Below, in pieces: positions 2,605 to 46,855 of a stretch of 64,000 nucleotides of DNA. How positions within the stretch are numbered: position 1 is the first letter of the stretch; each line of letters starts with the position of its first letter. The translations under genes and the position numbers were made by a program. The DNA is from an uncultured SAR86 cluster bacterium (GTDB lineage: Bacteria > Pseudomonadota > Gammaproteobacteria > Magnimaribacterales > D2472), in assembly GCA_902596165.1 (NCBI GenBank), contig CACJSU010000002.1, positions 124,001-188,000 on the forward strand, read 5' to 3'. Under the pieces are notes generated by a model. That model was not told the DNA's origin, ran no database searches, and saw nothing but the letters and a program-made list of their open reading frames with translations.

Positions 2605-2632
2605 AAAAAAGAAGCCTCCCGAAGGAGGCTTC
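2605..2632 (-). terminator. Rho-independent terminator (minus strand)
   Basis: Minus-strand GAAGCCTCC-TTCG-GGAGGCTTC followed by TTTTTT: 9-bp stem with UUCG tetraloop. Confidence 0.9.
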
Positions 2633-2734
2633 ATACTATCAGAGTTAGATAAGTCTGATAGGCGAATTCGGTAATTCACCTCTTGTCAAAAGGCGAACCC
2701 TCCGTTTTCTAATTTAATATAAATACTAATAAGA

Positions 2735-2767
2735 TCACCTCCTGCGCAAGGGTATTAAAACAAGCAT
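2735..2767 (-). CDS. Putative leader peptide MLVLIPLRRR
   Basis: ATG CTT GTT TTA ATA CCC TTG CGC AGG AGG TGA, preceded by AAGGGG about 8 nt upstream; lies upstream of alternative hairpins and a terminator. Confidence 0.4.
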   Translation of the reverse strand: MLVLIPLRRR

Positions 2768-2865
2768 AAACAAATCCCCTTAGTAATTTGTACATGCGAC
2801 ATCTAGTTAAATTATATAGAGAAATCCTTTAAATTAAATACTGTTTTCAAGGAAAAGATGCAGCT

Positions 2866-3099
2866 TTAATGCAATAATTCAGGTTGATAGTATTCTTTGC
2901 TTTCAACCAAACTAAGATCAATAGGTTCACTTTCTTTTGGTTCTTGAATGTTATCAATATCTAAATATTCAATCGCTTTTTGTATATCTGCACCGAAGTA
3001 TTTAAATGCAATAGTCTTTAAGCCTGCACTTTTATCTACAAAAGCCTCATACTCGTGAAAGATCGGATCTAAAGGGTTTAAATGTATTAAATTATTCAT
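2866..3099 (-). CDS. Uncharacterised 77-aa protein, putative SOS-regulated gene
   Basis: ATG at 3099 (MNNLIHLNPLDPIFHEYEAF...) lies directly downstream of a perfect LexA-type palindrome. The longer 105-aa ORF would read through that palindrome. Confidence 0.6.
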   Translation of the reverse strand: MNNLIHLNPLDPIFHEYEAFVDKSAGLKTIAFKYFGADIQKAIEYLDIDNIQEPKESEPIDLSLVESKEYYQPELLH

Positions 3100-46636: not shown

Positions 46637-46661
46637 AAAAAAAAACAGAGCTAAGCTCTGT
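46637..46661 (-). terminator. Rho-independent terminator (minus strand)
   Basis: ACAGAGC-TTA-GCTCTGT then a run of T on the minus strand. Confidence 0.85.
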
Positions 46662-46855
46662 CTTTTCAGTTCGAGATTGGAAGGGGTCTAAAGTGAGAAT
46701 CTCTTTAGCTCCTTGAAGGTCTTCTCTTTCCTTCTTGGTGGGTTACTAAGCTCTTTTTTATCGTCGACTCTTAATAACGCTTTCGCCCTTCGTCTCTTCC
46801 TTCTCTTTCTCTCTTACTCCCGTCTGCAGTTGATTGTAAGTCGGTCCGAGTTGGT
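46637..46855 (-). ncRNA. Candidate purine-rich small RNA with own promoter and terminator
   Basis: Minus-strand TTGACT-16nt-TATATT promoter (46889-46862), about 220-nt non-coding stretch, hairpin ACAGAGC-TTA-GCTCTGT followed by a T run. Confidence 0.6.

Follow-up and report, generated by a model that had tools for sequence, protein, structure and literature searches.

Comparative analysis of an element upstream of an EamA exporter gene revealed a conserved promoter, a terminator belonging to the element itself, an open reading frame (ORF) of 14 codons, and a hairpin with a G-rich loop that is able to form a pseudoknot beside an extended Shine-Dalgarno sequence. Judged by sequence comparison, the element is the SAR86 version of a previously uncatalogued, mostly single-copy small RNA. 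It lies in a window of 64,000 nucleotides (G000:C2:124001-188000) from the 1.45-Mb genome of a member of SAR86, an abundant surface-ocean lineage. The reading that we favour, at a probability of roughly 60%, is that of a peptide-encoding, translation-gated small RNA, with the EamA gene placed downstream by readthrough in this lineage; the RNA would probably make or sense a short peptide. No Rfam family reached its gathering score at the window element and permissive thresholds also gave nothing real, in agreement with the preliminary description, which had recognised no known riboswitch or leader class in it. Phe_leader, GibS and STnc100 scored 31.9, 25.5 and 18.9 bits against gathering scores of 55, 115 and 47 bits, respectively, and a resemblance to Phe_leader or STnc100 was rejected on these scores. 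We did not find the RNA described in the literature. Elsewhere in the window, at 46661-46850 on the minus strand, Rfam identified an IMES-1 RNA motif (RF02034, 198.8 bits).

The element was searched for by blastn in 120 relatives and with a covariance model, R1, trained on SAR86 sequences alone. Kinship is labelled f for family and g for genus, and the window copy belongs to f1 and g1. The blastn search detected the element in most g1 genomes as well as in further genera of f1. R1 matched 137 of 202 SAR86-order genomes, spread over four families and 21 of 22 genera; nearly all genomes with a match had a single strong one. The genomes searched were mostly incomplete; among those at least 90% complete, 35/40 carried a match. 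The RNA has been kept in almost every good-quality SAR86 genome despite the small size of these genomes, and is absent from Rfam. When R1 was run on 369 genomes of the class, three of them SAR86 genomes with a match, it gave one convincing match beyond SAR86 (G500, E 1.5e-5). Further searches, the later of them with a model (R2) that included two AUG-started copies, added G576, G574, G253, G596 and G593. The collection comprised 71 copies, 65 from SAR86 and six from other Gammaproteobacteria.

All features of the element lie on the minus strand of the window. A -10 box, TATATAAT (2811-2818), includes the TATAAT at 2811-2816, and the RNA is expected to start just 5' of a conserved GUC (2800-2798). 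A perfect TATAAT was present 10-11 nt 5' of this GUC in 40/42 f1 copies, and the -10 box was weaker in f2 and f3. The GUC and the hairpin P1 (2797-2786 paired with 2775-2764) together occupy 2764-2800. The P1 loop, UACUAAGGGG, contains AAGGG (2777-2781), the 5' strand of the predicted pseudoknot, and the 3' strand CCCUU (2748-2752) lies directly 5' of the Shine-Dalgarno sequence. The latter, GGAGGUGAUC (2733-2742), is the complement of this genome's own 16S tail, GAUCACCUCC, and is the sole such match in the window. It is followed by the 14-codon ORF (2686-2730), which runs from AUU to UGA and encodes ISIYIKLENGGFAF. Two hairpins, at 2680-2661 with arms GGTGAATT-ACCG-AATTCGCC and at 2661-2636 with arms CTATCAGA..TCTGATAG, lie on the 3'UTR side (2636-2680), which also holds the partner strand of a further helix, P4, weak in g1. 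An intrinsic terminator (2605-2632) with a stem at 2632-2611 and a U run ends the RNA, the length of which is about 190-200 nt. The 200-nt RNA folded at -61 kcal/mol compared with -43.4 kcal/mol for shuffled sequences (z -4.6; 0/200 shuffles as good), and a terminator was found in all 45 f1 and f4 copies folded. An own promoter combined with an own terminator is as in a small RNA. The EamA gene (1659-2522; PF00892, E 7.9e-39) starts with GTG, without a clear Shine-Dalgarno sequence, 82 nt from the U run. The TATAAT, both hairpins, the terminator and its spacing of about 80 nt to an EamA gene had been placed correctly in the preliminary description. Just upstream of the element, a 72-codon ORF (MNNLIHLNPLDPIFHEYEAF..., 2866-3084, minus strand) had no Pfam match.

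Covariation supported P1, in which both strands had changed at 9/11 pairs; helix 3 was out of register in the alignment used (A3) and forms no part of the covariation evidence. Variants of both pseudoknot strands were also observed across families, with AAGGG/CCCUU in the window, GAGGG/CCCUC and CAGGG/CCCUG in other families, and CAGAGA/UCUCUG in f4. When the partner strands were swapped between copies, f4 strands paired better with their own partners (-8.2) than with swapped ones (-5.1). The same test was flat over all copies because GGG/CCC is nearly invariant, and support for the pseudoknot comes from f4 and from the copies with AUG starts. P4, a helix of the 3'UTR with the second half of the ORF, scored -10.8 with own and -9.4 with swapped partners over all copies, and -16.1 versus -9.8 in the AUG group; no pairing excess over swaps was seen in g1, g2-6 or g8-10. 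The RNA thus has a covarying hairpin and a likely pseudoknot, and its core also holds an ORF under coding constraint.

The ORF is preceded by a 10-nt Shine-Dalgarno sequence complementary to the 16S tail, begins with AUU, spans 14 codons and ends with UGA. The block GGAGGUGRUC, which can base-pair with the genome's own 16S 3' tail, was the most constant part of the RNA and lay two to four bases from the start codon. In a tally of 67 copies, which included two non-SAR86 copies, the start was AUU in 62, AUC in three and AUG in the two non-SAR86 copies, the length was 14 codons in 66 and 13 in one, and the stop context was UGA-C in 66 and UAA-C in one. Over the whole collection, all 65/65 SAR86 copies started with AUU or AUC and 6/6 outside copies with AUG, and the ORF was 14 codons long in 70/71 copies and 13 in the other. 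No in-frame stop occurred in 826 codons, compared with a mean of 21.9 and a minimum of 12 when letters were shuffled within columns; such shuffles ignore descent, so the zero count is support and not a probability. The other two frames had stops at about the shuffled level or above, and f1 alone gave a similar picture. Insertions and deletions fell in the flanks and in the spacer between the Shine-Dalgarno sequence and the start, with a single 3-nt loss within the ORF. The end of the ORF was conserved in f1 as x-[A/T]-F-UGA-C, and the amino acids at codons 4-7 varied freely. Since many bases of the ORF also lie in RNA helices, its conservation is partly structural. A prfB-like +1 frameshift at UUU-UGA-C was considered and rejected, as by eye the +1 frame past the stop differed between lineages.

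The six copies outside SAR86 bear directly on the start codon. Each had a G-rich loop, CCCU 5' of the Shine-Dalgarno sequence and a 14-codon ORF, and in G500 this codon count was not built into the search, R1 having been trained on SAR86 alone. Their peptides (MSNDSMCAASGATC, MSNRCIIGAPGGTC, MSHRCIIGFSGGAC, MSNECINGASGGTC, MSNRCMYRTSGGTC and MSNGCINGASEGAC) follow the pattern MSNxCI..GASGGTC* and share with the SAR86 peptides mainly S2, G8, G11 and a small residue at position 13. The Ser2 codon is TCT in the copies that start with AUG and, for the most part, AGT in SAR86. The AUG-started homologues of 14 codons, the shared residues and the difference in the Ser2 codon led us to read AUU as the SAR86 start. 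With AUG in relatives, AUU or AUC across SAR86 and a Shine-Dalgarno sequence retained at full length, the RNA is a natural case in which to ask why a peptide gene would be held at low initiation. Distant blastn searches of E. coli genomes matched a stretch of about 45 nt at the 3' end and nothing more. Weak model matches in G284, G483 and G443, together with most pattern matches, were rejected because the ORF or a motif was missing. Other partial resemblances were seen in G427 (family f113; L245/L269) and G311 (L268), which contain GACAGGGG..GCCCUG and GGAGGTGATCCC; in G427 an 11-codon ORF, MSNGCIEVLTG*, is a possible shortened relative. In L266 (G292) and L267 (G458), ORFs of 26 and 22 codons stand behind GGAGGTGATC and ATGTCT, with terminator-like hairpins 3' of them and no pseudoknot seen.

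These data also bear on whether the RNA is a riboswitch, in which the pseudoknot and conserved bases would form an aptamer for an EamA substrate and the open frame would be incidental to fixed loop lengths. Many invariant bases, the pseudoknot, the covariation of P1 and the terminator platform are in keeping with such a role; however, the avoidance of stops, the AUG start in relatives, the 3-nt-only indel and the switch of Ser codons count against it, and f2 and f3 lack the cis gene. A riboswitch is thus, in our assessment, quite improbable.

The preliminary description had correctly proposed that a structured RNA driven by a promoter, with a short ORF and a strong terminator, lies ahead of EamA, but the ORF that it named, MLVLIPLRRR (2735-2767), lies outside the system proposed here. 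It was thought to encode a leader peptide whose tandem Arg codons control the terminator. With an ATG start, this frame was present in 0/53 copies outside g1; within g1 it was also broken in L019, where it has no in-frame start, and in L017, where just LHRR remains behind TTG, and the first Arg codon was replaced by His or Leu in several copies. The mini-ORF thus failed the check for in-frame conservation that the separate AUU-started ORF passes. Its AGGAGGTGA is the Shine-Dalgarno sequence of the AUU-started ORF and overlaps GGAGGUGRUC. The sequences of the model do exist in the window, and the AGGAGG/CCUCCU pairing with the terminator arm is possible in g1, yet its position varies between copies. 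What paired best with the terminator arm was located in the ORF for most of g1, in the P1 loop for many of the remaining f1 copies and at other sites in the rest, and among the copies compared by equilibrium folding no conserved antiterminator competing with the terminator was found; mutually exclusive hairpins thus did not hold up as a conserved mechanism. In folds of the 45 f1 and f4 copies, mean predicted terminator pairing was 0.93 in the free RNA, 0.92 when a ribosome was placed on the stop codon and 0.94 when it was placed on the start codon. A strong predicted loss with the ribosome at the stop codon, from 0.89 to 0.50, was confined to the window copy and fits the Arg-codon model there. 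Terminator folding is nearly independent of upstream pairing, which does not support classical Arg-codon attenuation; these folds are at equilibrium and without pseudoknots, and so leave room for kinetic or protein-assisted attenuation. As a conserved mechanism, Arg-codon control of the terminator by MLVLIPLRRR is refuted, and we give it hardly any weight. The independent small RNA that had been offered as an alternative came close to the truth.

In the peptide-encoding, translation-gated small RNA that we favour, ribosomes would load through the extended Shine-Dalgarno sequence at a rate that the AUU start should make low and sensitive to IF3. The 14-aa peptide would then be translated, with termination at UGA-C, and the translating ribosome would open P4, an opening that may be important. 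The active product would be either the peptide, whether released or still nascent, or the RNA with a ribosome on it. A related but rather doubtful view is that of a translation-state sensor, in which the 10-nt anti-Shine-Dalgarno duplex would load 30S subunits on a deliberately poor AUU and the 14 codons would report IF3 fidelity or RF2 termination at UGA-C, with readthrough to the exporter in some SAR86.

Parts of the favoured arrangement have counterparts in known systems. SgrS/SgrT is a dual-function small RNA that likewise has its own promoter and terminator, a structured RNA and a conserved small ORF; the ORF described here is much shorter and non-AUG. In the arrest-peptide leaders TnaC and SpeFL, a short ORF has conserved C-terminal residues and stop-codon context, as here, whereas the gene regulated in cis is not invariant in our RNA and the sequence is different. 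E. coli infC likewise starts with the near-cognate codon AUU. In S. aureus, initiation was shown to be lower where a non-AUG start is combined with an extended Shine-Dalgarno sequence, and modulation by IF3 is reported (PMC13009471). There, cvfC1 (AUU) and ccpN (AUA) resemble the present case in a near-cognate start kept across species and an unusually long Shine-Dalgarno sequence (PMC13009471); unlike cvfC1, ccpN and infC, which are protein genes, the ORF here is one of 14 codons within a structured small RNA. A mixed cis and trans role would have a precedent in rnTrpL/peTrpL of Sinorhizobium meliloti, an attenuator-type RNA that is released and carries a short leader ORF, the peptide of which acts in trans (PMC7298713). 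The sequences are unrelated, and our RNA differs in its AUU start, pseudoknot and extended Shine-Dalgarno sequence and in the lack of a biosynthetic operon or regulatory codon run; neither ISIYIKLENGGFAF nor its homologues contained a run of codons for one sensed amino acid.

The relation to EamA differed between families. An EamA gene was located 3' of every f1 copy with readable flanks, and in f4 a gene for an EamA protein 31-33% identical to that of the window directly followed the terminator. Outside g1, the terminator U run ended close to the EamA ATG, which leaves little space there for a promoter of its own. With the terminator shortly before EamA in f1 and f4, readthrough of the RNA probably gives rise to exporter expression there. 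The f2 and f3 copies examined were instead free-standing, with their own terminator and mostly a convergent gene behind, and the AUG outgroup copies examined were free-standing as well. We also weighed a leader-peptide attenuator acting in cis, in which nascent-peptide arrest near Phe-UGA, of the type known from TnaC or SpeFL, would stall a ribosome within the 14-codon ORF, alter termination and turn the exporter on as its substrate accumulates. The constant EamA neighbour in f1 and its presence in f4, the terminator near the ATG outside g1 and the conserved x-[A/T]-F-UGA-C end are consistent with it, and the f1 flanks may even indicate cis control as the main role. Against it stand the free-standing copies, a predicted terminator that barely shifts with ribosome position and the lack of a conserved antiterminator partner among the copies compared, and we regard it as possible but somewhat unlikely. 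As EamA is constant in f1, present in f4 and missing in f2 and f3, control of EamA in cis is likely a lineage-specific addition to the peptide-encoding small RNA and not its core function, which suggests that a free-standing RNA can be put to use, in particular lineages, as the leader of an exporter gene. A separate feature of f2 and f3 copies (L123, L129, L170, L172 and others) was an additional hairpin, located 3' of the ORF and before the terminator, whose conserved loop resembles AGUUGAGAUAC; this hairpin was missing in f1 and f4.
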